Below are positions 32,756-58,782 of a DNA stretch of 64,000 nt, one piece after another. The DNA lies in assembly GCF_003574315.2 (NCBI RefSeq), contig NZ_AP025739.1, positions 1-64,000 of the forward strand. The letters run 5' to 3'. A model generated the notes under the pieces. It was not told the DNA's origin, ran no database searches, and saw only the letters and a program-made list of their open reading frames with translations. The position numbers and the translations under genes are program-made. Source of the stretch: Capsulimonas corticalis. Lineage in GTDB: Bacteria > Armatimonadota > Armatimonadia > Armatimonadales > Capsulimonadaceae. Every line of letters begins with the position of its first letter. The stretch's first letter is position 1.

Positions 32756-32764
32756 GTCGGCCTC

Positions 32765-34081: not shown

Positions 34082-34083
34082 AA

Positions 34084-36618: not shown

Positions 36619-36639
36619 AGTGAATAGCTCCAGGCAAAC

Positions 36640-36667
36640 AAAAAGCCGCCTCACGATTGAGGACGGC
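36640..36667 (-). terminator. Terminator upstream of the SGNH fibre gene
   Basis: GCCGCCTCA / TGAGGACGGC stem (36645-36667, one mismatch, 4-nt loop) followed on the minus strand by TTTTT. Confidence 0.75.
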
Positions 36668-36677
36668 CAGAGAAAAT

Positions 36678-36693
36678 TATTCCGCGCGGAATA
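36678..36693. repeat. 16-bp palindrome, site 1 (intergenic)
   Basis: TATTCCGCGCGGAATA, perfect, in the short gap between the tail-tube paralogue stop (36705) and the next gene. One of five copies in the structural region. Confidence 0.9.
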
Positions 36694-36704
36694 TAAACGC
36701 CTGA

Positions 36705-37421
36705 TCAGAACTGCATCTGCACGGTGGCGAGCACGCCGCCGCTGTCCGGGTAGCCGTGCATCGCGAATTGCGGGAGCGTGAAATCCTCCAGCTTCGCGGG
36801 GAGGACGACGCCAGGAGCGCGCACATTCCCGAACGTGTAAATCTGCTGCAAGCCGCCTGTGCTCTGCGTCGTCAGCACGGCGGAGAACATCGGGAGCGTC
36901 ACCGTTCGGCCCAGCGTCTCCACCACCGGATTAGATCCGCTCTGCGTCGATCCCAGCAGCATCTGAAGCGCGGCGGCGCTGAACGAGGCATTGACCGCCT
37001 GCATGTACGCCTCACGACCGAACAACCCCACATCGACCGGATGCGCCGAGACTTGGGGCGCGTCGTAGAGCAGGCGCCGCTGCCCGGCGATCATCACGGC
37101 GACGTCCTGCACCAGCGCGAACTCCACCGGCCCCGCGCCGGCGTCCGCATAAAGCGTGCCGGTGGAGAACAGGTACATCCCCTGCTGGCCGACCGTGATA
37201 GTAACTTCGTTGCTCGGCGGGCTCTCGATGCCAGCGGCGACGGCCTTTACATATCCCCAGTACGTCGTCCCAGGCGAAGCCCCAGCATCCAGAAACTGCG
37301 TGTTCGTGATGCCTGTCTGGTAAAGCGTTTCCGCGCCGGACGCCAGCCCGCGGTAAAGGTTGTACGAATCGGGAGCAGGCCCGATCGCCGGCGCCCCCCA
37401 TGTCCACAGAAGCTTTGCCAT
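36705..37421 (-). CDS. Tail-tube-fold paralogue with N-terminal fibronectin III domain
   Basis: 238 aa from ATG 37421, which overlaps the previous TGA as TGATG. Residues ~1-80 are a fibronectin-type III domain (YNLYRGLASGAETLY, TTYWGYVKAVAAGIESPPSNEVTI). Residues ~95-238 match the C-terminal half of the protein at 47018-47980: ALVQDVAV, RLLYDAP, SAHPVDVGLF, VRAPGVVLPAKLEDFTLP and YPDSGGVL versus LLQDVAV, KLLYGPA, SVHPQDVGF, VRAPGVDIPFKMEDFAMP and FPDSQGVL. It may be a specialised tube or baseplate component; the fold name is inferred from gene order. Confidence 0.75.
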   Translation of the reverse strand: MAKLLWTWGAPAIGPAPDSYNLYRGLASGAETLYQTGITNTQFLDAGASPGTTYWGYVKAVAAGIESPPSNEVTITVGQQGMYLFSTGTLYADAGAGPVEFALVQDVAVMIAGQRRLLYDAPQVSAHPVDVGLFGREAYMQAVNASFSAAALQMLLGSTQSGSNPVVETLGRTVTLPMFSAVLTTQSTGGLQQIYTFGNVRAPGVVLPAKLEDFTLPQFAMHGYPDSGGVLATVQMQF

Positions 37422-38065
37422 CAATACACCTGCGACACTGCGAGATTAAGCGGCGACCGGTCCGTCAGCGTTACCAGGCTGATCGATGTGTCCGCGAAGA
37501 TCGACAGCCCCGACTGGCCGGCCGCCTGCAAAGAGGTTGTGCTGTCCGACGCGTTCAATGAGCCGACCACCGAAGCGGCCGTCATATCGATCAGCGTGCC
37601 AGTCAGCGCCGTCGGCGTCGCTCCGATCGCCGTGAAGACCATCCGGTAGGCATGCCCGATCACGCCATTTATGACCTGCGACGCGAGATAGATCAGCGCG
37701 CCGTTTTCGAACTTCGCAATGTTGAATAGGATTGATGAATTGACGCCGCGATTGAATCCCAGCGAGTAATAGTGACTGATATCCTGGTAGCGGAGGATCA
37801 GATAATTGGCGCGCTGGTTGTCGGGCTGCCCCAAGATCTCACAGAGGATTTGCTGATCCAGACAACTCTCACTGGCGGGGCGCAGCAGGAAGTCTCTGGC
37901 ATAGGCGCCGCCGGGCAATGTGTCCGCGACGCCAATAAGCGAATTACCGGTGATACTCCAGATGCCGCCCTGAACATCGATCCAGCCGTTGCCGGCTCCC
38001 GATGTGCTGCCAGCTCCGCCAGCCGTGGTATCCGTCCGGTGGAAGTTGTCCGAGTAGTTAGACAT
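37421..38065 (-). CDS. Phage fibre-region LamG-like protein
   Basis: 214 aa. Aromatic/Gly-rich strands (SDNFHRTD, WSITGNSLIGV, DISHYYSLGFNRG, AYRMVFTAIG) suggest a concanavalin/LamG-like lectin fold like its neighbours. No enzyme motif. Probably a receptor-binding or decoration protein. Confidence 0.65.
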   Translation of the reverse strand: MSNYSDNFHRTDTTAGGAGSTSGAGNGWIDVQGGIWSITGNSLIGVADTLPGGAYARDFLLRPASESCLDQQILCEILGQPDNQRANYLILRYQDISHYYSLGFNRGVNSSILFNIAKFENGALIYLASQVINGVIGHAYRMVFTAIGATPTALTGTLIDMTAASVVGSLNASDSTTSLQAAGQSGLSIFADTSISLVTLTDRSPLNLAVSQVY

Positions 38066-38090
38066 TAAGATTTACCAGGATCAGCAGGCG

Positions 38091-38963
38091 TTAAACCGTC
38101 GGAATTTGGACCCACTGATACGTACCGTCCACTTTCTGTATGACACTATAGAAGCGATCCGGCGTGCTGGCGGCCGTGCCGATCGTGTAGTGTGAGAGGA
38201 TCGTCGTCGGGGAAAGCGCCACATTGTACGCCGCGACCTCATCGAGCCGTCCCGCAAAATTCGGCGCCTGCACATCCTTTGCGAACGTCATTGCGCTGGT
38301 CGTTGAGCTAATCGTACCGCCAGCGCTGGTCGTCTGCGCGGCGAGCGCTCCGTCGATGTAGGCCGACAGCGTGGTCGAACCGTCGTAGACCATAACGCCA
38401 TGATGCCAGGTCGAGAACGCGCCAGGTGACGGGTTCAGCGTAAAGGCGGTGCCGGAGCTGTTTCGGAATCGGCATTCAAGCTGCGTGGAATTGAGGATGT
38501 CGCAGTAAAAGTCGGCCGTCGTGTTGTTTCGAAGACCGCAAACGGATGTATTGGAACTGCTGGTGCTGTAGTACCAGAACTCCAGCGACATCGCTCCGCC
38601 GACCCAGTCCGCAGATCCGTTTGTCACGCTCCCATTGCCGCCGCCGAATAGGACGGCTCGGTTCCCAACATCCGGCGTCGCTCCCATCTGGCCCAGGGTG
38701 TAGATTCCCGAATAGGTCCCGTTACGCGTCCCCTTGCTATCCGTGAGCGTCGTCCCTGCGACTTCATCAAGTTTCCAGTAATTGGTCAATCCCGCCGTGG
38801 CGTAAACTGCATCTTGGTATCCCGTCGCCGCTGCGATTTGGGCTTGCAGAAGAAACAACTGCCCGCGCAGCGCCGGCGTTGGGGTCGGTAGCGTGGATAC
38901 GAGCTGGAACGGAGAATTATAGTCACGGCCTGGCGTTGGGAATCCATAGAACCCATTTTCCAT
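38091..38963 (-). CDS. LamG-domain phage receptor-binding protein
   Basis: 290 aa. Residues ~55-265 form a LamG/concanavalin-like lectin domain: TNYWKLDEVAGTTLTDSKG, MSLEFWYYSTSS, WHHGVMVYDGSTTLSAYIDG, and FAGRLDEVAAYNVALSPTTI. The start and end are short tail-attachment-like segments. It would bind host surface glycan. ATG overlaps the preceding TAA (TAATG). Confidence 0.8.
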   Translation of the reverse strand: MENGFYGFPTPGRDYNSPFQLVSTLPTPTPALRGQLFLLQAQIAAATGYQDAVYATAGLTNYWKLDEVAGTTLTDSKGTRNGTYSGIYTLGQMGATPDVGNRAVLFGGGNGSVTNGSADWVGGAMSLEFWYYSTSSSNTSVCGLRNNTTADFYCDILNSTQLECRFRNSSGTAFTLNPSPGAFSTWHHGVMVYDGSTTLSAYIDGALAAQTTSAGGTISSTTSAMTFAKDVQAPNFAGRLDEVAAYNVALSPTTILSHYTIGTAASTPDRFYSVIQKVDGTYQWVQIPTV

Positions 38964-39343
38964 TAATAGGAACCGCCTTCCGCGATGACGTTGAAAGTCT
39001 CGGCGTTGTGCGTGCTGGCGCGCAGCTTATAGCCATTTGGGAGAATGAGCGCCTGAGCGGGCAAGACACTGGCAAAGGCGGAAATCGCGGCAGTCGGAGC
39101 AATGGCCGTGATCGGCACTTCCTTCCACAGGCGATTGTTTGTCCCGTCGTAGATGTAAAGTCTGACCATGCCAGCGGATGTCGTGCCCGTCGCGATAACG
39201 GTGATTCTGTCGATCCTTGTTCCGTTTGTCGCACCTGTGGCGATATCAGCCAATGTTCCGGTGCCGTCGCGATTTGTGTTTGCCGTCGAGATCTGAGCAG
39301 ATGAGATGACCGGCGTTGCGGTAAATATTGGAGCAGTGGACAT
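38963..39343 (-). CDS. Small conserved-type phage tail protein
   Basis: 126 aa, beta-rich (DRITVIATGTTSAGMVRLYIYDG, NGYKLRASTHNAETFNVIAEGG). The layout resembles small tail/fibre-associated proteins found next to baseplate genes; precise role not recognised. Confidence 0.6.
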   Translation of the reverse strand: MSTAPIFTATPVISSAQISTANTNRDGTGTLADIATGATNGTRIDRITVIATGTTSAGMVRLYIYDGTNNRLWKEVPITAIAPTAAISAFASVLPAQALILPNGYKLRASTHNAETFNVIAEGGSY

Positions 39344-39351
39344 GATTCACC

Positions 39352-41790
39352 TCAAGAAAAATGGTCATAGAGATAGAGCGTTCCGCCCACCCCGCCGCCG
39401 GAACCGCCGGATGGAAGCGCCGCAATGATCGCGTCCATCTCGGTCTTCTCGTAGACGGTAGGATCCACATGGTCCACGGTCGTTTTTACCGTACCTGAAA
39501 CCGTACTACTGGCCACCGGAGTCGGTACCGGTGTCGTGACGCCGCCGCCCGTCCCCGATCCAACCGCCGCGATCGACGACGCTCCGCCGCTGCCGGTGCC
39601 GCTGGACGATCCACTGCGCGAGCGCAGCAGCTTCGCGACGGTCGGCCGCTCGTTGGAGAGTTCCAGCGAAACCGCAAGCGTCGCCTTCGACCATGTATAC
39701 TGCGCGCGCGCCGGCCAGTCGGTGATGTCGGCGGCGGCCGTCCCTGAGACGCGCACCTGCGTCCCTTCGCCTGGGGAGGGCGCCTGCGTGTGCTCGTGGA
39801 TCAGTTCAACGCGGTCGCGCCGAAGCGGAACCGCGTTGCGGGTGAAGTAAGCGCCGGCCCAGGCTTTCGCGTCGCCGTTCCAGGTCACAATGTCGGGATT
39901 GGAGACGACGCTCTCACGCCTGCCGTACGTCGTGAACGAGAGCGCCGCCGCAGCGGAAACTCCAGTCAGCGAAGTGTCTTCCGCGACAACATACTTTTCG
40001 AAGTTGGCCCCGCGCAGGAACTCATCGCCCGCCGCCGAATCCCGCACGCTGATGCAGTCGATATCGTAAACACCAGCGGATCCGAAGCTCAGTCCTATCG
40101 TCGCCGACGCCGCGTCGCCGTGGGCAGTGACATCCATCGATATGTAATGCCAGGCTCCGTCATTAGGAATGGAAGTTCCAGAAGGACGAACCTTCTGGGT
40201 TTCGCTGCCTGGACCGGACCATTCCGTATACTCCAGGCGAACATTCCCCGCCGAGGAATTGAGGCCGGGAGCCATCCGAACCTGAGCGCTGCATCTTAGT
40301 GTTTGCGACGGTGTCGGCTTGAAGTGATTGCCGTTACTGCCACCATCGAGCCCGCCGATCGGTTCGAGGACAGGGTCATACGCCGTCGTTGGCGCCACAT
40401 CCACGCGGACGCCGTAAATCCCATCGAATGAGCCGCCTCGGCATGCCCAGTCGATGGATCGAAACTCAGATGTGAAGGTGGATCCACTCCGGTCATCCGC
40501 CATCCAGCCTGTTTGACCAAGCGCCCCGGCCTGAGCAAACACAACGTCATCAATCAGGAGTCCTTTGCCGCCCGTGCCGTTCGTCGTCTTGATGCGGATC
40601 CGCGCCTTGGTCGTGCTGGTGTTGGTGAACGTGACGCTCGTGGTCAGCGCGTCTCCGGCAAAGATCGTCGAGCCCTGCCCTCCAGACCACGCGGTAGATG
40701 ACGGCGCGATCGGAAGCGGCTGCGGTGTCTCCAGGACTGTTCCCGACGAACTGCGCCCCTCAATAATCAAGGAGCCGACATTCGCGAGAGAACCGTTCTC
40801 TCTGCGGGCAAACAGAGAAGCGGTATATTGCACACCGGGAGTAACTGGAACTTCCTGCCAGATCTCTTCGTTCGCGTTGTCGAGAATCGCGTACCACTGT
40901 CCGGAGTGAGCGCTCGCGTTATGCCCGGACGACGGATCATAGTTATTGCGAGAGGCGCCGTTGATGTAATTCCAGGTGATGTTCCCCTCAAACCCGCCGT
41001 CGCTCAGCATGTTGCCCGACGCCTCGTTCGGTACGATCGGGATTTCGAAGCTCGGATTTGTGACTAACTGCGGATATTTGGCCGGGCCGCCTTGGAGCTT
41101 GATGCCATTGGCGATGTTGGTATGATCGAGCGGCGAACTCAGGACCTTGACACGGTCGCCAACAAACCACTGATGCCCTACGGAAGCCACTCGCGGGCGC
41201 AGGTAAAAGCGGTCCAGATTTGTGACGGGATCGATGTCCCAGCCCCAAACGCTATTACGGCCCGCCTGCTGCTGGAGCTGATCCATCGCGGCGCGCGCTG
41301 TTGTATTGGAGAGCGTCAGCGTCTCAAGGCTCACCCCGGTGTCCTGGATGTCGCGTACAAACACAAGGCCCGGGCGCCGAGCAGCGTAGTCGTCGGCAAT
41401 CTCGGCGGCGAACGCACTCAGATCCTTGTCGGCCGGATGAACGATCACTTTATCGAGGACGACATGGTTCATATCCTCCATGCGTCCGTAGGCTGTGAGC
41501 ACACACTTTTCTTTAAGATCAAGAGTAGGCTCTGGGATCGTCACCACGCCGCGCGCGCGCAGCGTCTCGGCGCCGTCCGTGTTCCGCGCCCAGATCTCCA
41601 CCAGGTCCCCGCCGGCGACGCCAAGAGCGACGTCATAGAGACGCGCCAGACTGACATTGATCTGCCCTGTTCCGCCCGCCTCCAATAACTCCCAGCTCGT
41701 TCCGTCAACGAAGTCATCAGGGTTGACCTGCAATCTCAGCCCGGTCGTACCGCTGATGAACCTGGGTTCGATGTCAAAATTGATAGCCAT
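39352..41790 (-). CDS. Large baseplate/tail protein with inserted carbohydrate-binding modules
   Basis: 812 aa. The N-terminal ~235 residues and ~615-690 look like a tail-tip hub (Tal/gp27-like; LVEIWARNTDGAETLRARGVV, TARAAMDQLQQQAG, LRPRVASVGHQWFVGDRV). Between them lie two jelly-roll modules of CenC type (NPSFEIPIV to LLIDDVVF, then a segment ending VYDIDCISV), expected to bind polysaccharide. The C-terminus is Gly/Ser-rich (SGSSSGTGSGGASS), a flexible link to fibres. It follows Dit, the usual order in siphophages. The hub call is inference. Confidence 0.75.
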   Translation of the reverse strand: MAINFDIEPRFISGTTGLRLQVNPDDFVDGTSWELLEAGGTGQINVSLARLYDVALGVAGGDLVEIWARNTDGAETLRARGVVTIPEPTLDLKEKCVLTAYGRMEDMNHVVLDKVIVHPADKDLSAFAAEIADDYAARRPGLVFVRDIQDTGVSLETLTLSNTTARAAMDQLQQQAGRNSVWGWDIDPVTNLDRFYLRPRVASVGHQWFVGDRVKVLSSPLDHTNIANGIKLQGGPAKYPQLVTNPSFEIPIVPNEASGNMLSDGGFEGNITWNYINGASRNNYDPSSGHNASAHSGQWYAILDNANEEIWQEVPVTPGVQYTASLFARRENGSLANVGSLIIEGRSSSGTVLETPQPLPIAPSSTAWSGGQGSTIFAGDALTTSVTFTNTSTTKARIRIKTTNGTGGKGLLIDDVVFAQAGALGQTGWMADDRSGSTFTSEFRSIDWACRGGSFDGIYGVRVDVAPTTAYDPVLEPIGGLDGGSNGNHFKPTPSQTLRCSAQVRMAPGLNSSAGNVRLEYTEWSGPGSETQKVRPSGTSIPNDGAWHYISMDVTAHGDAASATIGLSFGSAGVYDIDCISVRDSAAGDEFLRGANFEKYVVAEDTSLTGVSAAAALSFTTYGRRESVVSNPDIVTWNGDAKAWAGAYFTRNAVPLRRDRVELIHEHTQAPSPGEGTQVRVSGTAAADITDWPARAQYTWSKATLAVSLELSNERPTVAKLLRSRSGSSSGTGSGGASSIAAVGSGTGGGVTTPVPTPVASSTVSGTVKTTVDHVDPTVYEKTEMDAIIAALPSGGSGGGVGGTLYLYDHFS

Positions 41791-41793
41791 GGT

Positions 41794-42531
41794 TTAGTAC
41801 CGACGCGCGGTGTAAGAGCAGGCGAGTGAGGCGATGGAAACGGTCGACGCCGAGGGCGCGATCGTGTTGGAGCCGACGCCGATCTCAGGGATCCGTCCCG
41901 TCAGCAGTCCGAAGTTTGCGACTCCGTTCAGCTTCACCGTATAGGCGGCGCGGTCGATGACGATCACGTCGCCGCTGGTGAACGTCCCGATGATCGTCGC
42001 CGTCTCGCCGGTGGTCGAGTTCGTCAGCGTGACCGAGCCTGTTCCGCCGGTCCCGATCGTAATTGTCCAGACCGGCTTGCTCGGCGCCGTACCGGCATTG
42101 ACGATCGTTCCCCCGGCGGATGAGAGCGTCGGCGTCGTCGCGGTGGCGTCGAACCATGCCGGATCCTTCGCGCGGAACGTGATCGCGATCGCCGTCACGA
42201 CGCCGTATAGCATTCCGTCGCTGTAATCCGTCGTCCAGCCTTCCGCCTGCGCCATGACGTAACGATCGTCGCGGCCATGATAGAGCGCGGCCACCTGCCC
42301 AGGAGCGCAGGCCGCGCGCATCGCCTCATAGATCACGTTGAGGGAGTCGGCGTCCGCCGCCGTGATCTCGCCTCGGATCGTCAGTATCCGCGATTTCTGC
42401 CGGGCGATCTGCGTCGAGGATCCATCCGCGCGCGGCCGTTCCTGTTCGGCGAGGTCCGCCGGCGCTTCCCCGCCGGCGGGCCGCATCGTGCCAGGGAATG
42501 TATAGCCGCCATACTGAAGCAAGTAGCTCAT
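41794..42531 (-). CDS. Distal tail protein (Dit-like)
   Basis: 245 aa from ATG 42531 (a TTG lies one codon upstream). The N-terminus (YLLQYGGYTFPGTMRPAG, QIARQKSRILTIRGEI) and the middle (AIAITFRAKDPAWFDATA) fit the siphophage Dit/tail family, which forms the hexameric ring joining tube and tip. Its place directly after the tape measure supports this. Confidence 0.78.
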   Translation of the reverse strand: MSYLLQYGGYTFPGTMRPAGGEAPADLAEQERPRADGSSTQIARQKSRILTIRGEITAADADSLNVIYEAMRAACAPGQVAALYHGRDDRYVMAQAEGWTTDYSDGMLYGVVTAIAITFRAKDPAWFDATATTPTLSSAGGTIVNAGTAPSKPVWTITIGTGGTGSVTLTNSTTGETATIIGTFTSGDVIVIDRAAYTVKLNGVANFGLLTGRIPEIGVGSNTIAPSASTVSIASLACSYTARRY

Positions 42532-42540
42532 CAAATCCCC

Positions 42541-45500
42541 TTAGCTGTCCGTCGCGACCGCCAGGCGCTGCTGGATCAGCCAGCCCGCGTTGTCGTACAT
42601 GGCGCGCGCGCCGTCGGCGTCGTGAATGTCTCCGAAGTGATTGACCGTGATCGGTGGATGTCCGCCGCCTTCCGACATTCCGCGCGGAATAACCTTCTCA
42701 CCTGGGGTCAACATCGCCGGCACCGTGTCCCTAAATCCGACTCCCGGAACCGTGCCGCCTTTGCTGAAGTGGAAGATTTTCTTGAGCGGATTGCCGAGCA
42801 GGGAGTTAATCGCGAGGCCGCCGGCCACCCACGGGAGCGCCGCCATCAGCGGTCCGCCTGCCGCCATCATTCCGCCATGGGCGAACAGATGACCGAGCAC
42901 GCCGCCCTTGCCCAGCAGTGACGCAAGAGACGCGGCGGTCCCGATCGCGCCGGCCGCGCCGCCCTGACCCGTCGCGCCGGCCACCGCAGCAGCCGCGCCG
43001 AGCTGGCCGCCCAGCGGGTTTCCGCCTGGGGCGATCCCCGGCGTCGACGGGATGCCGGCAGATCCGCCGAAGCTTGGGATATTCAGCCCAAGCCCGGAGC
43101 TCGCCCCGCTGACACCGGCGCTGAGCGCGCCCAGTCCCGCCAACGCGCCGGCGCCGCCGCCCGTCACTTTTGGACCGCCCAGCAGATGCAGCACCGCCCA
43201 CTTCGCGGCGATTTGTGTGATGGTCGAGATGACGTAGGATTTGATGTCATCCATGATCGACGCAATCCCGGTCTTCATGTTGCGCCAGTGGCCCAGGATC
43301 TTGCTGAGGCCGCTCTGCATCGCCTGCTCCATGGGCTTTGCTTTGCGGTCCCATTCCTCTTTTGCCGCCGCCGTTTCTTCGGCGTCGATCCCGCGCATCT
43401 TGACTTGGTACAGCGCGTTGGCCTGCGCCTTCGCGTCGGCCTCCTCGACGCCGCGCGCTTTGAGCCCTTCGATGTAAGACGCGGCTTCGGCGGCCGCTTC
43501 CTGGCGAAGACTGTCAAAGTAGAGGTGAGCCTCTGAGCGGTTATTGCGCCACTCTTCGCGCTGCGCCTCGGCGGTCGCGCGGGCGAGCTCACGCTCGTAG
43601 TCCGCCAGCTCTTTCGCCTGCGCCTTCTGCTCTTTGATGTCGTCGTTCTGCGTGCTGATCTCGTCCTGAGCGTCGGCGATTTCATTCGTCTGGATCGCGC
43701 CGACATTACCCTTGACGGTCTTATTCAGGCCGCCCATGAACTTGCTCAGATCGAAGCTGATCGGCTTCGCGGCGTCCGGATTGCCGAAGATGTCGCCGGC
43801 GTTGCTCTTGGTCGCTTTGTTGATGCCCTTGATACTGTCCGTGATGATGGACATGATCTTGACGGCATGGCGCTGCTGCTCCGTCTCCACTTTGGCGTGA
43901 TGCTGCTTGAGGTCGTCGAGCTCTTCCTGATGGATGTCAGCCAGCGCCTTTTTGTAGACGATGGCCGCCAGACGAGGATCCGTCTCCTTGTCCTTCTTAT
44001 AGGTCTGCTGCGCCTCGTATCGCTCCTGCGCATACTTGCCGTTCTTCGCGCCGATCGCGCGCGCCATCAGGTCAGTGAGATCAGACGCGTCGCCGCCCCC
44101 GCCGCTCGTCGCGCCGCTGGGAGTGAGCGCCGATCCGCCCGAGTCGCCCGGAGCAGCGAACGCGTAATACTGTCCGCCGTGCTCGGCGGCGATCTGCGCG
44201 AGCGTGCGATCTCCTCGGTAGTGGCGTCCTTTTCCGCCAGCGGTCGTCGACTCGACCATCACTTGCTGATCTTGATCGTTCAGGCCGCCCGCCACGGCGA
44301 AATGCTGCTGACCGGATCCGGAGACAGACCCGGAATGCTGCTTGTCCGGGAAATAGACGATCGTGCCCGGGGGAAGGAAACCATTCGCGTCTGGATGAAG
44401 CTGCTGATCCTTGTGAGCGATCGCCGCCTTCGCCAGAGCTGTCGCAGTCCCGGTCAAACCGGACTCCTTCAGCGCCTTTGAGACGGCGGCGCCGCACTGG
44501 ATCCCAGTCGCCTCGCCGATGTGTTTCGCCATCGCCTCCGCAAGCTTGCTCCCGCCGCTGGCGCCGGCATCCGGTCCGTTCGCCTGGCGCTCCAGCTGCG
44601 CGGCGCGGTCCAGCGCATAGCGGCGGCGGTTCTCCATTTCGACCAACTGTGACTGGTATGCTTTGCCCAGTCCCAGCGGATCGAACTCGCCATGCCCTTC
44701 GGGAAGATGCAGGTTCCGCTGCATCTGGATCCGGCTGTTGATATCGCTGCTGAGCCTCGCCGCCTCGGCGCGCAGCTCCGCCGCTTCGGTAATTTTGCCG
44801 CTCTTCTCCGGGATCTTGTCGAGTGATTTACTGAACACGTCCTCGGTATGCTGCGCCTCGTCGAAGCGCTGCTTAATCAGCAAGATCGCGGCCGCCACCG
44901 CCGCCAGCGCGATCAGGTACGGGCCGCCTTTGCTGAACGCCGCGATGCCGCCTTTCGAAAAGCCAACTTGCTCAGCGCCGGCCAAGCCGATCATTTTCTT
45001 CAGGTCGCCGAAGACCAGGCCGGCCGCCCCGGCGCCGAGCTTCAGGGCGCCCAGGCCGACAACGACTTCCTGGATCGGCTTCGGGAGCTGCGCGAAGAGA
45101 TCGAGCAGTTCGGAGAGCAAATGCGCCGTCTCACGAATGGCAGGGATCGCCGCTTCAAACACTGGCGTCACCTTTTCGCCGGCGGGAACGAAGTCCGTTT
45201 TGATCTCGTTCGTGATGCGCGCGATCTCATTGTTCAGGGTCTGGAGGGTTCGGTTATAGGCTTCCGTGGTGGGGTCGATCTTGCCCGACATGGCGTCAGA
45301 GAGCGAGCCCAGGATCTCCTTGTAATCGTTCGCGCCGCTGCCGGCGAGGATCATCGCGCCGATGCCGCCGCGCTGCGCCTCGATTAGCTTGTAGATCTCT
45401 TCGCCGTTGCCCTTCGCGGCGCGCTTCACATCATCCATCACGCCGGCCAGCCCCTTGGCCTTGAGGCCGGCCTGGCTGAAGTCCGCCACCAGGTCAATCC

Positions 45501-46305: not shown

Positions 46306-46311
46306 GGTGAC

Positions 46312-46913: not shown

Positions 46914-46930
46914 TCAGTACTCCCGCCAGC

Positions 46931-46960
46931 AAAAAGGCGCCGACCTCGCGGCCGCGCCTT
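46931..46960 (-). terminator. Terminator between tail-tube-like and chaperone genes
   Basis: AAGGCGC / GCGCCTT stem (46934-46940, 46954-46960), then UUUUU on the minus strand. Confidence 0.7.
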
Positions 46961-47000
46961 CGCTGGACTTGTGTTTTTTGATCGATTGTGATTTGATCGA

Positions 47001-47016
47001 TATTCCGTGCGGAATA
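47001..47016. repeat. 16-bp palindrome, site 3 (one mismatch)
   Basis: TATTCCGTGCGGAATA, ending 1 nt before the stop codon of the tail-tube-like gene. One base departs from perfect symmetry. Confidence 0.8.
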
Positions 47017-47017
47017 C

Positions 47018-47980
47018 TTATTGAGGCATGCTGATAACGTAGAGCACGCCTTGCGAATCGGGAAACGCCGTCAGTTCAAAACCCGGCATGGCGAAGTCTT
47101 CCATTTTGAACGGAATGTCCACGCCCGGCGCGCGCACGTTCATGTAGGTCCAGGTCTGCACGCGGCCGGTGGTGTCCTGCGTCTGGAGCGCCGCCGCGAA
47201 CGACGGCAGCGCCACGACTTTATTCATCGTCTCGGTCAGGACCGTGACGCCGTTCACCACCGCCGTGGTTTCCGCCGCGCCGGTGAGCTTTCGCAGCGCG
47301 TCCGATTTGATCATCGCGACCGTCGCCTTGATCGTCGCCATCGCTCCGGAGAAGCCGACATCTTGCGGATGCACGGAGACCCAGGCCGGGCCATACAAGA
47401 GTTTCTTGTTTGCTTTGTTGCTGACGGCGACGTCTTGCAGCAGCGCCAGCGTAATCCCGGTATATACCGTCGCCGTGACTTCCGCGATCGTGATTGAGCT
47501 CGCCCCGGCGTTCACCGCCTCGATCAGCAGATACCGGCCGACCACGACGGGCGCGAGCGTCGTCGTGCGCGTCGCCACGGCCGCAACCCAGGTATCGATC
47601 AAAGTCGTTTGTGGATCGCCCGGTGCGGCGCTGGGGTTGTCCGCCAGCCAAATGTCCGCCGTGCTCGCGCCGCTGCCGATGGCGCTGATCTGGGTCGTCA
47701 TCTGCGATATTGTGTACGGCGCTCCCAGGTCCAGGACAAACCAGTCGTTGGCCGTGGAGAGCGACGCCGACGTATGCGTGTTGATGACAGCGGTCGTTCC
47801 GGCGCTGCCGTCCGCGATGTTGCCCGCCGGGCTGGCGTAAGTCGCGCCGCTGTTGATCGTGCGAGACGCCGACAGCGATGCGCCTGAGAGGATCTGTGTC
47901 GGATCCGGCAGAACGCCGGATCCGAGCACGCCGGGATATGCTTGGAGCACACCCGTGCTAAAAATACGCTGTTCCGACAT
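47018..47980 (-). CDS. Tail-tube-fold protein with discoidin-like N-terminal domain
   Basis: 320 aa from ATG 47980; the longer open frame upstream overlaps the neighbour and is rejected. Residues ~25-165 resemble an F5/8-type C (discoidin) domain (AGNIADGSAGTTAVINTHTS, WFVLDLGAPYTISQMTTQI, GRYLLIEAVNAGASSITIAEV). Residues ~170-320 share the tube-like signature with the proteins at 36705 and 47998. Tube proteins with extra surface domains exist in other phages, where they project from the tail; that is the likely design here. Confidence 0.75.
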   Translation of the reverse strand: MSEQRIFSTGVLQAYPGVLGSGVLPDPTQILSGASLSASRTINSGATYASPAGNIADGSAGTTAVINTHTSASLSTANDWFVLDLGAPYTISQMTTQISAIGSGASTADIWLADNPSAAPGDPQTTLIDTWVAAVATRTTTLAPVVVGRYLLIEAVNAGASSITIAEVTATVYTGITLALLQDVAVSNKANKKLLYGPAWVSVHPQDVGFSGAMATIKATVAMIKSDALRKLTGAAETTAVVNGVTVLTETMNKVVALPSFAAALQTQDTTGRVQTWTYMNVRAPGVDIPFKMEDFAMPGFELTAFPDSQGVLYVISMPQ

Positions 47981-47997
47981 GGTGATCTCCTCGCGGT

Positions 47998-48507
47998 TTA
48001 CTGATCCAGGGAGATCGTGCCGACCGCGCCGGCGTTGGCCGGATCGCCCAGGCAGAAGACCTCGATCTGCATATCGGCGAAGTCGTCGAGCTTGAACGTC
48101 AGCGGCAGATCCACTGCGTAGCAGTTGAAGAGAACGATCTTGACGTTCTTGCCGTTCGTGTCGATCTGATCGAGCTCCAGGCGGAACTTCGTCGGCTGCG
48201 CGGTCTTGCCGATGGTGTAGGTGTCGGTGGTCGATACCGTCGTTTTTGTGGCGCCAGTGATGCGGGCGATGACGTCTCGGTTGATATCCTTGAAGTTGAT
48301 CTTGACGCTGCATTCGCCTTTGGAGAAGCCGACATCGACCGGGAACATGCTGACGATCGGAGTGTTGTACAGCTCCTTCTTGTCGTACTTCGTGTTCATC
48401 GAGCTATCTTGAACCGAGCCGACGCCGTTGGCGCTGTCGGTGAGCGTGGCGCCGACGTTGCCAATGCGGCACTTACCGGAACCAAATACGTGAAGTTCTG
48501 TGGGCAT
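47998..48507 (-). CDS. Probable major tail tube protein
   Basis: 169 aa, no extra domain. SMFPVDVGFSKGECSVKINF, DVIARITGATK and LPLTFKLDDFADMQIEVF correspond to blocks in the two longer paralogues. Size and position upstream of chaperones and tape measure fit the major tail (tube) protein. Confidence 0.75.
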   Translation of the reverse strand: MPTELHVFGSGKCRIGNVGATLTDSANGVGSVQDSSMNTKYDKKELYNTPIVSMFPVDVGFSKGECSVKINFKDINRDVIARITGATKTTVSTTDTYTIGKTAQPTKFRLELDQIDTNGKNVKIVLFNCYAVDLPLTFKLDDFADMQIEVFCLGDPANAGAVGTISLDQ

Positions 48508-48523
48508 GATAGACCTTTCGCAA

Positions 48524-48553
48524 TAAAAAAGACCCGCCTTTCGGCTGGGTCTT
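48524..48553 (-). terminator. Terminator of the membrane-protein moron
   Basis: AAGACCC..GGGTCTT stem (about 48529-48553, one bulge) followed on the minus strand by UUUUUU. Confidence 0.8.
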
Positions 48554-48612
48554 AATAATTAGCAACAGATAAGACATTGCACTATCTGTTTTCGTGATTT
48601 AATTATTTGATG

Positions 48613-49398
48613 TTATGGCTTGTATACGATTACGTTAAACAACGAGCGGTCAAGCCGCAACACATGGTAACCGTGATTTGTTTGATCTCGAACACGAATA
48701 AGTACAGCTTTGTCGTCCTCATCAATCAGCTGCACCCAGTTAGTAGTCAATGATTGAGCAGATGTCATTGGCAAAGCTGATGCTAAGATTGTTGATCCTT
48801 CATGTGTACAGATTAATTGTACTTCTGGCAGGGCGCCTCCTCCATATGCGGCAGGAATTAGCGGGAATATGGTTCTGCTGTACAAAACTATTAAACCAGC
48901 TCCGACTGTAAATACATGAAGATAACTAACGAACCAGTGAAATGTATTATTTGATCTTGCGTTATCAATCCAAACGAAAACAGTCGGGATCGCGATCACA
49001 AACGCCAGCATCTTTAACATATACATATGCCAGGTTAATTTAGACGCCGTAGTAAAAAAGCTAAGCAGAATCAATTCTAGTACTAACCACAATAACCACG
49101 AATAAATAATCTTAAGAATAACCTTGGGTATCGCCTTATCCGACATAGCCTTTTTAAGCTTGTCTTCAAAATAACAACTTTGCGCCACATAACTACCGAG
49201 CATTATTATCATTGCAGTAATACCCACTGCAATATATCGTGGTTTTAGCAGAACGAAATCTACGGCGCCTAATGAACTAAGGTACACACTGCAAACGAAA
49301 AATCCTAGCCCGTATACCAACCCTAAAACGCTTGCAGCCAATGCCGCAATGTTCGAAGCCATTGAGAGAATGTGATTGCTGTTGTCTTTGAATGTCAA
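48613..49398 (-). CDS. Low-GC five-helix membrane protein (moron)
   Basis: 261 aa. TTG start supported by AGGAG at 7 nt. Hydrophobic segments at about 18-43, 54-77, 93-116, 126-145 and 155-183, then an ~80-residue soluble tail (VQLICTHEGSTILASALP to RSLFNVIVYKP). The DNA is clearly more A+T-rich than all flanking genes. With its own terminator and leader it interrupts the tight tail operon, the hallmark of a moron. A superinfection-exclusion or defence function is a hypothesis; no family recognised. Confidence 0.8.
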   Translation of the reverse strand: MTFKDNSNHILSMASNIAALAASVLGLVYGLGFFVCSVYLSSLGAVDFVLLKPRYIAVGITAMIIMLGSYVAQSCYFEDKLKKAMSDKAIPKVILKIIYSWLLWLVLELILLSFFTTASKLTWHMYMLKMLAFVIAIPTVFVWIDNARSNNTFHWFVSYLHVFTVGAGLIVLYSRTIFPLIPAAYGGGALPEVQLICTHEGSTILASALPMTSAQSLTTNWVQLIDEDDKAVLIRVRDQTNHGYHVLRLDRSLFNVIVYKP

Positions 49399-49543
49399 AA
49401 TAGATCTCCTAATAGTAAATCAGAGATTAGTATTATTGCAGAAGACAATTTCCCGTCGTGCAATTGTAAGTTAGTCTCTATAACTATTTTGACACACAGG
49501 CACTCGAAAAGTTGCAATGTACAATTCAGTAAACACTGAATTC

Positions 49544-49996
49544 CTATCTAGCGATTCTGAGCCGGTAGCGGGCGAGAAGAAACGACGCGTTGAGCGTCTT
49601 GTCGTAGAGATCGGATTGGGTCATGACGCATTCCGCGCGGAATACCCGGCCGGTTGTGAGAGAAAGAGGGCGTCCGTCAAAGATGGCGACCAGGCGCGCG
49701 GCGATCGCTTCCAGATCCGCGCAGTCCGGTTTCTGGGTCCATGCTTCAATCTCCAGATACTCATCCTGCACCGTGGACGGGCCACCGCCGACATTAATCG
49801 CCGGGCGGAACCGCCGATCCGGAGCGCCGTCGGCGATCCTGTATGTCACGGAGTTGTAAACCGGAGGCGTCTGAGATTTATGGCCGTTGAAGATCGCGGG
49901 CGCGGTGCTATCGTCGGGATCCTTCGCCAGCAGCGCCACGAGCGGCGCGTCGGCGCTCATCGCCGCGACGATCACCGTCTTTGTGGCGAGGCTCAT
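49544..49996 (-). CDS. Tail terminator/completion protein (DUF3168-like)
   Basis: 150 aa. Blocks such as DAPLVALLAKDP, VTYRIADGAPDRRF, LEIEAWTQKPDCADLEAIAARLVAIFDG and ASFLLARYRLRI follow the gp17/DUF3168 family of tail completion proteins, which cap the tail for head joining. It overlaps the gp10-like gene by TGATG. Confidence 0.75.
   Translation of the reverse strand: MSLATKTVIVAAMSADAPLVALLAKDPDDSTAPAIFNGHKSQTPPVYNSVTYRIADGAPDRRFRPAINVGGGPSTVQDEYLEIEAWTQKPDCADLEAIAARLVAIFDGRPLSLTTGRVFRAECVMTQSDLYDKTLNASFLLARYRLRIAR
49630..49643. repeat. 14-bp palindrome core, site 4 (in tail completion gene)
   Basis: ATTCCGCGCGGAAT, perfect, followed by AC; inside coding sequence. Confidence 0.85.
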
Positions 49997-50451
49997 CAGT
50001 CAGCTCCATGCGCCGCCGCGCGCGCTCGGTCGTTGCGGAAATTCGTCTTGGCGTCGGCGAAGGACTTCGCCAGGCTGCCGGACCGCGAGAGGGACGCGCC
50101 GACGGCATCGTTGCCCAGGCGGCTGCGAAGAATGTTCAAAATATCTTGCTCGTGACGAATGATGACGGGCCAGAGGAACGCCCATTTGCCATCGTGAGCC
50201 AGCTCCAGGAAGATGTCGTAATCCATGCCGGCGGACAACACGCCGCGAACGATCTCGGCGGTCGCCTCCGCGACCTCGCCGCGAATGCTGTTGGTCGTGT
50301 TTGCCGTCCGGTCCGTATAGGCGTGCTCAGACTTCGCCCAGCCCTCCAGCGCCGCCATCACTTCGTTCATGGCGAGTTCGGCCAGCTTCTGGCGTTCCTC
50401 GATCCATTTCGCCAGGTTGCCGATCACTGTGTCGGCGCCTTCCACGCTCAT
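49996..50451 (-). CDS. HK97 gp10-like head-tail joining protein
   Basis: 151 aa from ATG 50451, overlapping the preceding stop as ATGA. Helical N-terminus (AKWIEERQKLAELAMNEVMAALEGWAKSE), then YTDRTANTTNSIRGEV and YDIFLELAHDGKWAFLWPVI match the gp10 family of siphophage connector proteins. Confidence 0.85.
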   Translation of the reverse strand: MSVEGADTVIGNLAKWIEERQKLAELAMNEVMAALEGWAKSEHAYTDRTANTTNSIRGEVAEATAEIVRGVLSAGMDYDIFLELAHDGKWAFLWPVIIRHEQDILNILRSRLGNDAVGASLSRSGSLAKSFADAKTNFRNDRARAAAHGAD

Positions 50452-50801
50452 CCGTCGACTCCTGTCTCCAGATCGCACTGGACGCGATCGCTGTAGCGCC
50501 GAACTCGCAGGACCTTAGCCCTCTCCGTGACGCTGGGATCGTCGTCGCTGGGAATGAGCGCGATGTCGTTCTTGCGCACGCCGGCGGCGGGATCCAGGAT
50601 TGAGAGGCGACGCATTTGATCCTGCGTCGCGATACCCGGCTCCGCCTCATCTCGGTTCACGGTCACCTGAGCGACGCGGTAAACGCGCGCGCTGAACGGC
50701 GAGCCGGGAATATCTGCCTCGGCATTCACCGTCTTGCCGCCTGTCGGCGTCCGGGAACGGCTTGCGCGCAGGATACGGACCGCAATGGGGTCGAGAGGCA
50801 T
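50448..50801 (-). CDS. Head-tail stopper/closure protein
   Basis: 117 aa. Segments VRILRASRSRTPTGGKTVNAEA and NDIALIPSDDDPSVTERAKVLRVRRYSDR, with its size and its place between adaptor and gp10-like genes, suit the small head-closure proteins. Sequence similarity is not decisive. Confidence 0.6.
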   Translation of the reverse strand: MPLDPIAVRILRASRSRTPTGGKTVNAEADIPGSPFSARVYRVAQVTVNRDEAEPGIATQDQMRRLSILDPAAGVRKNDIALIPSDDDPSVTERAKVLRVRRYSDRVQCDLETGVDG

Positions 50802-50802
50802 A

Positions 50803-51501
50803 TCAGATCATCCTCGGGCGCATGTTGCGCAGCCGCTTTCCGGCCGGGCGCGTGTAGTCGGCAAGCTTCGCGGCGTAGTCGAGTCCCCAGGCCGCATCCG
50901 TCGCCGTGGGCAGTTTGTACCGCTCCTCTTCGTCGCCGGCCTTGCGGACGGACACCTGTCCGCCCGGGCTGAAGATCGCCTCCGCCGTCAGCCGTCGCGC
51001 GACCTCGCCGCACACCGCATCCCAGAGATCATGGGGGATCTCGGCGCCATAACCGAACTGCCCGGTCACCAGGATGTTTTGACGACCGGCTGGAAAGAGC
51101 GACGGATAAGGGACGATCACGCCTTCGCTGATGAACGCCGGAACCGAGCCGCGCGCCACCACCAGGCGCGTCAACGGCTTATTCTGTTCCTGGATAAGCT
51201 GCACGTCGGTGAGCGTGTAACCCGGCGCGCTCTGGATCCCAACGACGGCGACACTGGTGAGAGAGACGATCTCATCGATCTCCATCTCCGCCGTTCCGGT
51301 CCCGTCATAGATCCGGACTTCGCCAGCGGCGCCGGGCAAGAATTGCCGCTTTGTCTTGCGGGCAACTTCCGCCGTAACGCCGTCCATCGCCTGCTGAAAT
51401 CGCCGCGCCAGATTGACGTTGCGCAGCGTTACGCCGGCGTGCGACAGGCGCAGCTGCACATCCTCCGACGTCGGCCAGATCGTATAATCGGTGGTGCTCA
51501 T
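50803..51501 (-). CDS. Head-tail adaptor/connector protein
   Basis: 232 aa. WPTSEDVQLRLSHAGVTL, RRFQQAMDGVTAEVARKTKRQFLPG and WDAVCGEVARRLTAEAIF suit the helical gp6/gp15-type adaptors that dock under the portal. Assigned mainly by position. Confidence 0.65.
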   Translation of the reverse strand: MSTTDYTIWPTSEDVQLRLSHAGVTLRNVNLARRFQQAMDGVTAEVARKTKRQFLPGAAGEVRIYDGTGTAEMEIDEIVSLTSVAVVGIQSAPGYTLTDVQLIQEQNKPLTRLVVARGSVPAFISEGVIVPYPSLFPAGRQNILVTGQFGYGAEIPHDLWDAVCGEVARRLTAEAIFSPGGQVSVRKAGDEEERYKLPTATDAAWGLDYAAKLADYTRPAGKRLRNMRPRMI

Positions 51502-51504
51502 GGT

Positions 51505-51855
51505 TTAGCTCGATGCGGGAGGCTTGGGCGGTCCAGGAGGCGTTGGAGGCGTGGCCCCCTGGCCACCATTCGCGGCGGCGTCCGCAGCGGCTTGCGCGGC
51601 CGCCGCGTCCGTCACCGGATTACCGGTCTCAGGCTCTTCCGGATCTTCGGGTTCCGGCGTGGTAGTCATGGCGGTGTACTGCTCGGGCGTCAGCACTTCG
51701 AAACCGTAACGGCCATCGAATGACTTCGCCACTTTCGGCGCGACGTCCGCGACCGCGATGTACACGCCCGCCTGACGATCGAGCATGCGCTCGAACTGCG
51801 TGTTTGTGACCATGTCAAAATACGTGCTGAAATTGCGGTTGATAACCTTAGGCAT
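51505..51855 (-). CDS. Small phage head-region protein
   Basis: 116 aa from ATG 51855 (GGAG 9 nt upstream). N-terminal VINRNFSTYFDMVTNTQFERMLDRQAGVYIAV, then a disordered Pro/Glu and Ala/Pro-rich tail (EPEDPEEPETGNP, GATPPTPPGPPKPP). Possibly a capsid accessory protein; not recognised. A 7-bp GGGCGGC hairpin without U-tract separates it from the capsid gene. Confidence 0.65.
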   Translation of the reverse strand: MPKVINRNFSTYFDMVTNTQFERMLDRQAGVYIAVADVAPKVAKSFDGRYGFEVLTPEQYTAMTTTPEPEDPEEPETGNPVTDAAAAQAAADAAANGGQGATPPTPPGPPKPPASS

Positions 51856-51908
51856 GTTCGTGAACTCCAGGGCGGCTTCGTCCGCCGCCCCTCGTGTCAT
51901 AGACCGAT

Positions 51909-52898
51909 TTACAGGGCGACGCTCGCAGGCACCTTCAGCTTGCCGTGGCAATATTCGGGGCCGTGGTCAATGCCGAGCTGACCGTAAAGCTGCGTCTGAT
52001 CCGCCGATCCCTGCTTGAAGAGTTGCTCTTCGAACAAGATGCCTTTGTTCGGAACCGGGAGACCGACGATGCCGGCGACGCCCAGGTTGCAGATGGCGAA
52101 ATACTGCGCTGGCATATCCGGCTCCAGCACCAGATTGATGGAGCCGAAGCGGGTCAGGATCTTGCGGACCTTGATGCCGGCGTACTCGCTCTCCGGCTGG
52201 AGGTAAATCGTGCCCTGCGCCTCGTAAGCGGCGCAGATGTTCGAGTACTCCGTCGTGCCGGCCAGCAGCGTCCATGTCTCATCCACGCCGTAACCGTTCG
52301 CGGTAATGACGGTCTGCATCAGGAGATTGACATAACCCCGGTACATCGTGGTGGTGACGCCTGTGTCCGCGCTCTTATCGATGCTGTTGGTCGTGATCGC
52401 CGTGAGCAAGCCTCGCGTCTTCAGCGCGGTGCTTGCCGGGTCAGCGGGATTGACGAAGGTCCCGTTGAGCATCGAATAGTTCGCGTCCTGCGCGACTTTT
52501 TGCAGGGTCGTCATGACCTGGAATTCCGACGAACGTGGATTCTGCACTCCGCCCTGCGCGGCCCCTTGCGGGATCGGGACGATGCCGGCGACGGTATGAT
52601 CCGACTGCGCCAGGTAAGTGATCGTGATCGCCTCCTGGAAGATCTGGATCACATTTGTGGATTGGGTTAGCGACCGATACGCCGGTGTGGGCGCATTGGC
52701 GCCTTCGAGGATTGCCGGCTGCGCGGGAGCGGGGATATTCCAGAAGGCGCCGATCGGGAATTCCTTCGCGGTGGTTTCCTGAACGCCGCCCTGGATGCCG
52801 CCCAGCAGACGAAGCAGCGCGTTAGGCCGCTTGTTCATTTGGAAGAGTTCCCCCAGGTAGGGAACGACGTTATTGATGGTTACAATGCCGTTGGGCAT
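51909..52898 (-). CDS. Major capsid protein (SU10/DUF5309 type)
   Basis: 329 aa. It reads as the SU10-like/DUF5309 capsid family with the HK97 fold: VVPYLGELFQMNKRPNALLRLLGG, EFPIGAFWNIPAPAQPAILEGA, STNVIQIFQEAITITYLAQSDH and ILTRFGSINLVLEPDMPAQYFAI. It lies directly after a scaffold-like gene and before the connectors. Confidence 0.88.
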   Translation of the reverse strand: MPNGIVTINNVVPYLGELFQMNKRPNALLRLLGGIQGGVQETTAKEFPIGAFWNIPAPAQPAILEGANAPTPAYRSLTQSTNVIQIFQEAITITYLAQSDHTVAGIVPIPQGAAQGGVQNPRSSEFQVMTTLQKVAQDANYSMLNGTFVNPADPASTALKTRGLLTAITTNSIDKSADTGVTTTMYRGYVNLLMQTVITANGYGVDETWTLLAGTTEYSNICAAYEAQGTIYLQPESEYAGIKVRKILTRFGSINLVLEPDMPAQYFAICNLGVAGIVGLPVPNKGILFEEQLFKQGSADQTQLYGQLGIDHGPEYCHGKLKVPASVAL

Positions 52899-52912
52899 GG
52901 GTCAATCCTTTG

Positions 52913-53494
52913 CTATTTGGAAGCCGATTCGCGCTTGAGGCGAATGACTTCCAGGGTATTGCCGGCCTTATAGGCGGCGTTGATTTTTTCGTCGAGGGAC
53001 GGTCCTTGCCCAGCCGCCGGGCGGGTGTTCGTGCCGGCCTGGACCGGAGGCTTGACCACGTTCGCGGCGAGGCGTTCAGCCTGCGCGCGCAGTGTCGCTT
53101 CGTCGGCGCCGTTCAGATCGTTGAGGATGTCGATCGATAGACCGGTTTCGCCAGCGATCTGGAGACGCAGCGCGCGATCCTCGGCTTGCTTGCGCGCCGT
53201 TTCGGCCTGATCGGCCCGGGCGCGCTCGCGCTCGAGCTCCGTCATTTCCGCAGTCTTGCGAGCGGTTTCCGCGTCTTCCAATTCCTTGTTGCGCTTCTCC
53301 GCTTGCTCCGCCTTGCGGCGCCACATGTTCGCCTCGTTGTCTTGCGCTGGCTTCTCGGGATCCGTCGAAGGCGGGGTTACAGCCGGCGGTGTCGCAGGAA
53401 CTGCGGGCGGCGCTACCGGTGCGGTGGGGGGCGGCTCATCCGGAGCGAAGTACCGAGGATGGGTCAGCGTAGTTTCAAATCGTCGATGGAACAT
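52913..53494 (-). CDS. Capsid scaffold protein
   Basis: 193 aa from ATG 53494 (GTG 53533 is an alternative). A Pro-rich N-terminus (PPPTAPVAPPAVPATPP) leads to a long charged coiled coil (~60-120, EQAEKRNKELEDAETARKTA). The C-terminal part (GTNTRPAAGQGPSLDEKINAAYKAGNTLEVIRL) is typical of phage scaffolds just before the capsid gene. Confidence 0.8.
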   Translation of the reverse strand: MFHRRFETTLTHPRYFAPDEPPPTAPVAPPAVPATPPAVTPPSTDPEKPAQDNEANMWRRKAEQAEKRNKELEDAETARKTAEMTELERERARADQAETARKQAEDRALRLQIAGETGLSIDILNDLNGADEATLRAQAERLAANVVKPPVQAGTNTRPAAGQGPSLDEKINAAYKAGNTLEVIRLKRESASK

Positions 53495-53567
53495 GGTGTT
53501 GTCGTTTCTCCTGAGATCAGGGTAGTTTGCCACTGAGCGCCCGTGGCCGGGTAGATGGAAAAGGACA

Positions 53568-53600
53568 GCAAAAAAGCGGCCCCGTCAGGAGTCGCTTTGG
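53568..53600 (-). terminator. Terminator-like hairpin after the Mu-F-like gene
   Basis: An AAGCG..CGCTT imperfect hairpin followed by UUUUUU on the minus strand. Confidence 0.5.
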
Positions 53601-54580
53601 GCTGGTGGATCGGGCTTCGGCTGCCCGTAGTATTTGCGCTGGCTTTCGGGCACATCGTCCGGCTTCGGAGGATGGCTCACGAACTGCTGATCCGGGAGCG
53701 ACGCCAAGAGCGTGACAGTATAGCAAAGGCAGTGAGGATGCCCGGGCGGAACATTGCCAGACGAGTAGTTCCCGGCTCCCAGTCCTTCGGTGTCGTCGCC
53801 GGCCCAGGCGTCACAGATATCCGTGCGAGGATGCGCCGGCGACAATCGCCAGCCGATTGCCTCCACCCACGGCTTGAGCTTTCCGTTCTCGTCCGTGACG
53901 CTCGCAATATGTCCCTCGCGATAAGCGCTGTTGATCTCCGTGCGGGCGATCCTCATTGCTTTGTAGCGAACATTCTCCACGCCCGGCGCTGTCAGCAGCG
54001 GGCGCAGCGCCTCCGCCAGCTTCCGCGCGCTTTGCCCCTGCGCGACGCCGCTGAACAGCGTATCGGCGATCGAGCGGCGCGCGTCCCTGTCCAGGTTGTA
54101 GAGGCGCTGCGAGAGCTTCAGGCCGTCCGGGTAAACCCTGGCGTACAGCCGATCCAGCACCTCCGCCTGTACCCTGCCGAATTCGACGCCGATCTGAGCC
54201 GCGCCGGCGGCGACGTGCAGCGAGTGCTCGGGATGGATCTGGGTACGCACCAGAGAAAGACGCCGCAGCAGATCCGCCTCGCGCTCGGACACGTTCAGCG
54301 CCGCCGCTTCAATCCCACCGTCCAGCGACGCCTTGAAGCGCTCGCCGAATGTGGTCACATGGCGACTGATGCTGCGCTCCAGATCGCGCTGGAAGCGTTC
54401 GGCGAGTATTCCGCGCGGAATACTGCGGATGTCCTCTTGCAGCGCGTCCAGCGTGTCATGAAGCAGTCCCAGCACATGCGCGATAGTGTCGCGGTCGAGC
54501 TGCATTTGCTTTTGCCGGGAGGCGCGGATCAACTGCGCGTATTCCTTCGCCAGCTCGGAGATCTCGAAGATGTCGGCCAT
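53585..54580 (-). CDS. Minor head protein (Mu F / SPP1 gp7-like)
   Basis: 331 aa. Helical N-terminal half. The C-terminal Mu-F-like domain has RIARTEINSAYREGHIAS, WRLSPAHPRTDICDAWAG, and GNVPPGHPHCLCYTVTLL with the conserved Cys/His-rich end. Members sit inside the capsid near the portal and may be ejected with DNA. TAATG overlap with the preceding gene. Confidence 0.88.
   Translation of the reverse strand: MADIFEISELAKEYAQLIRASRQKQMQLDRDTIAHVLGLLHDTLDALQEDIRSIPRGILAERFQRDLERSISRHVTTFGERFKASLDGGIEAAALNVSEREADLLRRLSLVRTQIHPEHSLHVAAGAAQIGVEFGRVQAEVLDRLYARVYPDGLKLSQRLYNLDRDARRSIADTLFSGVAQGQSARKLAEALRPLLTAPGVENVRYKAMRIARTEINSAYREGHIASVTDENGKLKPWVEAIGWRLSPAHPRTDICDAWAGDDTEGLGAGNYSSGNVPPGHPHCLCYTVTLLASLPDQQFVSHPPKPDDVPESQRKYYGQPKPDPPAQSDS
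54407..54422. repeat. 16-bp palindrome, site 5 (in Mu-F-like gene)
   Basis: TATTCCGCGCGGAATA, identical to site 1, inside coding sequence. Confidence 0.9.
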
Positions 54581-58770: not shown

Positions 58771-58782
58771 CAGCGTAGCCTC

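Follow-up and report, generated by a model that had tools for sequence, protein, structure and literature searches.

Sites of prophage W

The 64,000 nucleotides analysed here (the window: positions 1 to 64,000 of contig NZ_AP025739.1 of Capsulimonas corticalis) run from host DNA into a prophage, named W. Prophage W is a phage of siphovirus type whose terminase, portal, capsid and tape measure proteins are encoded on the minus strand. It spans 46.9 kb (29.6-76.6 kb), its ends being placed from the split host gene rlaP. A palindrome of 14 to 16 bases recurs along it; the nature of these sites, and the protein that may read them, are the subject of this work.

A search of the whole genome (one contig of 7,645,051 bases) at up to one mismatch gave nine places. 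Six are exact 14-mers, starting at 36679, 42677, 49630, 54408, 68862 and 71028; one is the seventh copy in W, at 47002, and two lie in the host (123110 and 1344467). The reversed control pattern gave no place. W carries seven copies in total, six exact and one with a single mismatch. Five are inside the window, the exact copies at 68862 and 71028 lying beyond its end. At the length of 16 bases, the copies starting at 36678 and 54407 are perfect, the one at 47001 has its central C changed to T, and those at 42676 and 49629 deviate at base 1, which leaves perfect 14-mers at 42677 and 49630. The five copies listed by an initial annotation of the window were all recovered, with the matches and the mismatch it gave; by the open frames two occupy short gaps and three lie inside genes, also as it described.

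Such a recurrence is beyond chance, as the same annotation had argued. With up to three mismatches allowed, the window has five copies, whereas 100 dinucleotide shuffles average 0.35 and 0/100 of them reach five; a first-order model expects 0.001 exact 14-mers in the 46.9-kb prophage. No other exact palindrome of at least 12 bases recurs in W. Its assignment to a phage rather than to the host also stood when prophage and chromosome were counted: every exact copy is within W, and 7.6 Mb of host DNA hold none, only the two one-mismatch places. A host chromosomal motif, for which the density should be similar on both sides, was ruled out.

The palindrome accompanies ParB in related phages

Scanning IMG/VR for the exact 16-mer returned 16 stretches from 15 records. 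One of them, G041, has the same five sites at a constant offset and is W itself. Two others contain scattered copies of ATTYCGCGCGRAAT, six in G049 and seven in G050; the remaining 12, each with a single exact copy and in some cases a few places at two mismatches, appear to be background. A genome collection of 257 billion bases has the exact 16-mer in 67 stretches, 66 of which are one place each or phage contigs already known; most of them are background, about 60 being expected by chance by our own arithmetic. Among 291 genomes of the phylum a pattern scan gave matches in 22, with at least two on one contig only in C. corticalis (G000, 6), G001:C318 (2), G217:C71 (4), G259:C31 (3) and G259:C29 (2); G260 has single copies on five contigs. 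Phage genes are common to several of these contigs and W, G049 or one another.

A second pattern scan (80 of its 91 stretches listed; records with at least two copies, and L287, were followed) added G306, with six exact copies, and G311, with five exact and one inexact, both encoding a ParB. A ParB-based scan (best 80 of 488 ParB relatives) gave G312, with eight exact copies, and G313, with four exact of the form ATTY...RAAT, one ATTTCGCGCGAAAC and one inexact; although these two came from the ParB scan first, the second pattern scan lists both too. G049, G050, G306 and G311 were found through the palindrome alone, through which the prophage contig G217:C71 and the fragment G257:C315 were found as well.

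Seven sequences have at least five scattered exact copies of RTTYCGCGCGRAAY. Six of the seven (G306, G311, G312, G313, G049 and G050) encode a protein with ParB_N and ParB-HTH domains, and W is the one in which no ParB was found. A copy lies inside parB itself in five of these six; over all eight ParBs associated with this site, the frame contains it in seven, G311 being the exception. The ParB-family proteins of G217:C71, G049, G050 and G257:C315 are about 690-830 amino acids long, each gene containing a palindrome. A search with the host ParA (E up to 1) through 28 sequences that carry the site or a ParB gave no match, with 4/4 host control loci positive; the query was a single sequence and several targets are partial, so that a remote ParA could escape.

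As a control, recurrent palindromes were counted in phage loci with and without ParB. A family of at least three members occurs in 15/73 ParB-bearing phage loci versus 0/37 other phage loci, and simulated sequences gave 0 in both sets. The control covered the first 12 kb of loci no shorter than 10 kb. About ten of the 15 positive loci are related phages, so the 15 are not independent; the comparison set was fetched mainly by palindrome patterns, and its count left the query motif out.

Several probable site codes in one genome

Two further prophages of this genome, recognised by their gene content and shared phage genes, have palindromes of their own. P2 (about 1.768-1.81 Mb) has four GTTTCGCGCGAAAC sites. 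P3 (about 6.39-6.45 Mb) has its own ParB and five copies of ATTGATCGATSAAT, one inside parB. A P3-type site is also present in W (69152), where the adjoining frame is 87% identical to one in P3.

The host parAB region (parAB at 1.54 Mb, dnaA at 1.601 Mb) has two exact and four one-mismatch copies of ATTCGCCGGCGAAT between 1.520 and 1.611 Mb (G000:C1:1519805-1610515; L124-L126, L242). The two exact ones directly follow parB, and ATTCGCCGGCGAAT is the putative host parS. Three GTTTCGC-type sites at 4.28 Mb were rejected for this role: the frames around them are transposase-like, and both dnaA (1.60 Mb) and parAB are far from them. These three fall within 0.6 kb (G000:C1:4281810-4282383, L142), in what reads by eye as a prophage remnant. 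Taken with the three prophages, the host would bring the ParB-type site codes of one cell to at least four.

The ParB of P3 has 842 amino acids (L119:1-2457; G000:C1:6429929-6432457) and is encoded among apparent modification genes. Its long N-terminal part looks by eye like a methyltransferase, to which the protein is apparently fused. This arrangement would suit a signal for DNA modification or packaging, with ParB directing either activity to the sites, and fusions of ParB to methyltransferases are described near terminase genes in Paracoccus phages (PMC6536676). However, the ParBs of G049, G050, G217, G257 and G313 contain only ParB_N and ParB-HTH plus one weak HTH_3 (Pfam, E up to 0.01), and no such modification-type gene was found in W. 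We regard a modification or packaging signal as very unlikely.

Half-sites and ParB residues

The half-site of the W palindrome is A1 T2 T3 Y4 C5 G6 C7 (ATTYCGC), in W ATTCCGC/GCGGAAT, and has the palindromic layout of parS and of the Noc-binding site (NBS). The parS half-site is GTTTCAC and the NBS half-site ATTTCCC. With Y4 counted as a match, the W site differs from parS at positions 1 and 6 and from NBS at position 6. It is at positions 1 and 6 that parS and NBS differ from each other, and Jalal et al. assign the reading of adenine 1 to Gln-173 and that of cytosine 6 to Arg-201 (PMC7383237).

In each of the eight ParBs that come with ATTYCGC sites, the residue aligned to position 173 is Gln, which fits base 1. 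At position 201 six of them have Ser and two have Thr. The host ParBs of G217, G259 and G260 are Arg-173/Gly-201, with GTTTCACGTGAAAC beside parB, and a phage ParB with Gln-173/Arg-201 (L150) comes with one ATTTCCCGGGAAAT and three near-copies. Exceptions are L149 (Gln/Ala, no site), L157 (Arg, TGATTAAGTAATCA) and L195 (Arg/Glu, TCCAGACGTCTGGA). Both residues were read for a chosen subset of 86 ParB loci; they were unreadable for the TGCAGACGTCTGCA loci asked for. This last word is another scattered palindrome, seen with near-copies in the ParB-encoding phages L159, L160, L161, L163, L164 and their relatives. The putative parS of C. corticalis is for its part non-canonical, and the chromosomal ParB it goes with has Gln-173; in three other hosts of the phylum the word is GTTTCACGTGAAAC.

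We propose that the palindromes of W are probably recognition sites of the ParB/Noc family, at which clamps would be loaded, belonging to a lineage of temperate phages. The initial annotation had listed a segregation signal among its alternatives, and on this proposal it was right to do so. In the relatives that encode ParB, the orphan protein, for which no ParA was detected, probably loads at five to eight sites placed every few kilobases. By analogy with its family, it may then slide as a nucleotide-dependent clamp and coat the phage genome. Such coating would silence or organise the genome, as with KorB or Noc, rather than serve a ParA-driven partition.

Several observations weigh against this proposal. 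Two Pfam models run over the whole genome identified no ParB in W, and neither did custom profiles at full sensitivity, whose best match was a 72-codon frame at E 0.85; a hidden ParB in W was dropped on this result. P2 has no ParB-HTH protein, only a ParB_N-like one near its terminase. ParB was likewise not found in six further records of the second pattern scan, G307, G308, G309, G314, G315 and G316 (9-23 kb, 1-3 exact sites; three read over their first 20 kb only), in G310 (43.6 kb, three sites) or in the phage contigs of G259 and G260. Residue 201 makes no clean code, Thr occurring with ATTTCGC (G306, G311) and with ATTGATC (P3), and L156, a Gln/Ser protein, has a single ATTCCAC site. Finally, 58/73 ParB loci show no recurrent palindrome at the threshold used.

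Conserved places of the sites

In the 150-residue gene that holds copy 4, W and C318 agree at every base of the palindrome, whereas the 60-base flanks agree at 70% and 68%. The palindrome belongs to the gene's longest identical run (15 bases); a run of 14 occurs only once more, at the gene's first 14 bases. The 47001-type site comes directly after a gene and upstream of the tape measure gene, whose start is 697 bases away in W, 652 in C318, 659 in G313 and 776 in G309; of the genes before the site, the one in C318 alone was shown to be homologous (32%). G313, which encodes a ParB, has a tape measure protein 48% identical to that of W over 426 residues. G309, found through the palindrome, is a structural relative of W (portal 60%, capsid 64%). 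The W palindrome at 71028 contains the end of the small gene 70858-71043, whose P3 homologue (53% over 51 residues) stops 4 bp before a P3 palindrome. When W and G260 are aligned (27% amino-acid identity), their sites in the tape measure gene share a column; both encode (I/F)PRG, and the shared place may be due to protein constraint.

It could be argued that the sites are vestigial, left without present function after the lineage lost its ParB. The failure to find ParB in W agrees with this, as do two degenerate copies, one in W and one in a relative's contig (C396). Yet 6/7 copies in W are exact, and the one in the 150-residue gene stayed identical despite its diverged flanks. We find vestigial sites improbable.

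Candidate readers of the W sites

Returning to ParB-family recognition, no ParB gene was found in W, and its sites would therefore be orphan sites. They may be served in trans, by the ParB of another phage or by the conserved second ParB of the host (ParB2), or else by an unrecognised phage protein.

A host reader might be the chromosomal ParB or ParB2, encoded at 4.51 Mb. ParB2 is present in 4/4 examined genomes with ParB-less palindrome phages (G000, G001, G259, G260), and over the whole genomes of G259 and G260 only the chromosomal ParB passes the ParB-HTH cut-off besides it. Against this, the host chromosome has no exact sites of its own, and the chromosomal ParB lies near ATTCGCCGGCGAAT here and beside GTTTCACGTGAAAC in G259 and G260, neither of which is the phage site. 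In ParB2, residue 173 is Glu or Asp where Gln would be expected. A host protein is thus, in our estimate, an unlikely reader. The chromosomal ParB in particular is disfavoured because the putative host parS is ATTCGCCGGCGAAT, and because the G259 and G260 hosts have Arg-173 and GTTTCAC. ParB2 (L122:9808-10998; G000:C1:4509808-4510998) has a cysteine-rich C-terminal part. At E 1e-40 it has matches in 63/291 genomes from the phylum, weaker ParB matches being included in this number.

The repressor region

Dispersed repressor sites are known as the stoperators of cluster A phages and the inverted repeats of phiC31. The initial annotation had likened the W palindromes to stoperators. Here, the 246-residue two-HTH repressor (67445-68185) or the neighbouring small HTH proteins would bind them and block lytic transcription. 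The layout of the sites, which are symmetric, resembles that of stoperators; two copies on the right arm are close to the repressor genes, and W and P2 have diverged regulators (44-62% identity) together with different palindromes. However, even at three mismatches no copy occurs in the divergent control region of repressor and cro (67289-67445). This region, bounded by the two-HTH repressor (67445) and the small HTH genes, contains CAACACTTG-type repeats instead, and the regulator region of P2 is likewise free of P2's palindrome. The W repressor has no blastp match in G049 or G050, and none in G217 and G306-G316 at 1e-6, several of these sequences being partial. A repressor operator in the classical layout was set aside because the control region is without a copy. 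The stoperator idea was not supported by this comparison, and dispersed operators seem to us a distinctly unlikely explanation.

Comparison with known systems

The OB sites of KorB are scattered over plasmid RK2 and differ in sequence from the W site; the IR1-4 sites of phage N15 are scattered too. What KorB has in common with the proposed system is clamp loading by a ParB-family protein at the operators of a mobile element, with long-range silencing (PMC11790492), although RK2 is a plasmid. N15 is a temperate phage with several palindromic sites for its ParB, SopB, and silencing around the site array (PMC7205306). Its prophage is a linear plasmid with active partition, whereas W is integrated and no ParA was found in related sequences. 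Noc/NBS and chromosomal ParB/parS share with W the 14-bp palindrome, the same half-site positions and the pairing of Gln-173 with adenine 1 (PMC7383237). They differ in that here base 6 is guanine, residue 201 is Ser or Thr, and the sites are on phages, theirs on the chromosome. Mycobacteriophage stoperators are also numerous across the genome (PMC9283540), but asymmetric and read by the immunity repressor.

In the case of SGI1, the parS mimics of the element are served by the ParB of a helper plasmid (PMC10954446). For W, a helper, incompatibility and binding in trans would all be hypothetical. We may speculate, with considerable doubt, that temperate phages in this phylum mark their whole genomes by ParB-site codes that are mutually distinct, several of them present in one cell. 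Phages without ParB, W among them, would then keep their sites and live off the ParB of other phages, as SGI1 does with its helper plasmid.

Orphan ParBs on prophages are noted in a survey of the ParB fold (PMC12704722), and one parS-like site is described in cyanophage Mic1 (PMC7156551). In a full-text search judged by titles and the starts of abstracts, with most subscription papers outside its coverage, we recognised no report that integrated prophages, whether or not they encode ParB, carry scattered parS-like sites. Our analysis would link a scattered phage palindrome to the ParB clamp family, offers a testable residue-to-base rule, and raises the question of ParB sites kept by a prophage without ParB. 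It also suggests a simple route to the sites of phage ParBs without known function, namely to seek a palindrome that recurs and has one of its copies within parB.

Gene content of prophage W

Table 1 Palindrome copies and other features of the window, with the right end of prophage W.
Feature	Position	Strand	Remarks
Palindrome copy 1, TATTCCGCGCGGAATA	36678..36693	.	in gap of 50 bp with a minus-strand frame on either side
Palindrome copy 2, 14-bp core	42676..42691	.	close to 3' end of tape measure gene
Palindrome copy 3, one mismatch	47001..47016	.	directly past stop of preceding gene, ~0.7 kb upstream of tape measure start; place common to C318, G309 and G313
Palindrome copy 4, 14-bp core	49629..49644	.	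within 150-aa gene 49544-49996; fully conserved in C318
Palindrome copy 5	54407..54422	.	within head morphogenesis gene 53585-54580; part of 20-bp palindrome 54405-54424
Prophage W	29618..64000	.	continues to about 76555; ends inferred from split rlaP
Host rlaP 5' part, attL side, interrupted by prophage insertion	29496..29636	+	tblastn; RlaP family; 3' part restarts at 76551, beyond window
Intact rlaP carried by prophage	29743..30642	-	88% amino-acid identity to host 3' part
Tail tape measure protein gene	42541..46305	-	
Terminase large subunit	56559..58295	-	
DUF3987 gene	61816..64000	-	start at 64548, beyond window
Serine integrase	74808-76526		beyond window, right end of prophage W

The rlaP gene broken by W (host part G000:C1:76551-77339) has its counterpart in the copy carried by the prophage, which lies reversed at the left end and perhaps replaces the gene broken on insertion. 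The right arm of W holds a cargo-like gene of the Beta_protein family (PF14350; L005:11762-12937).

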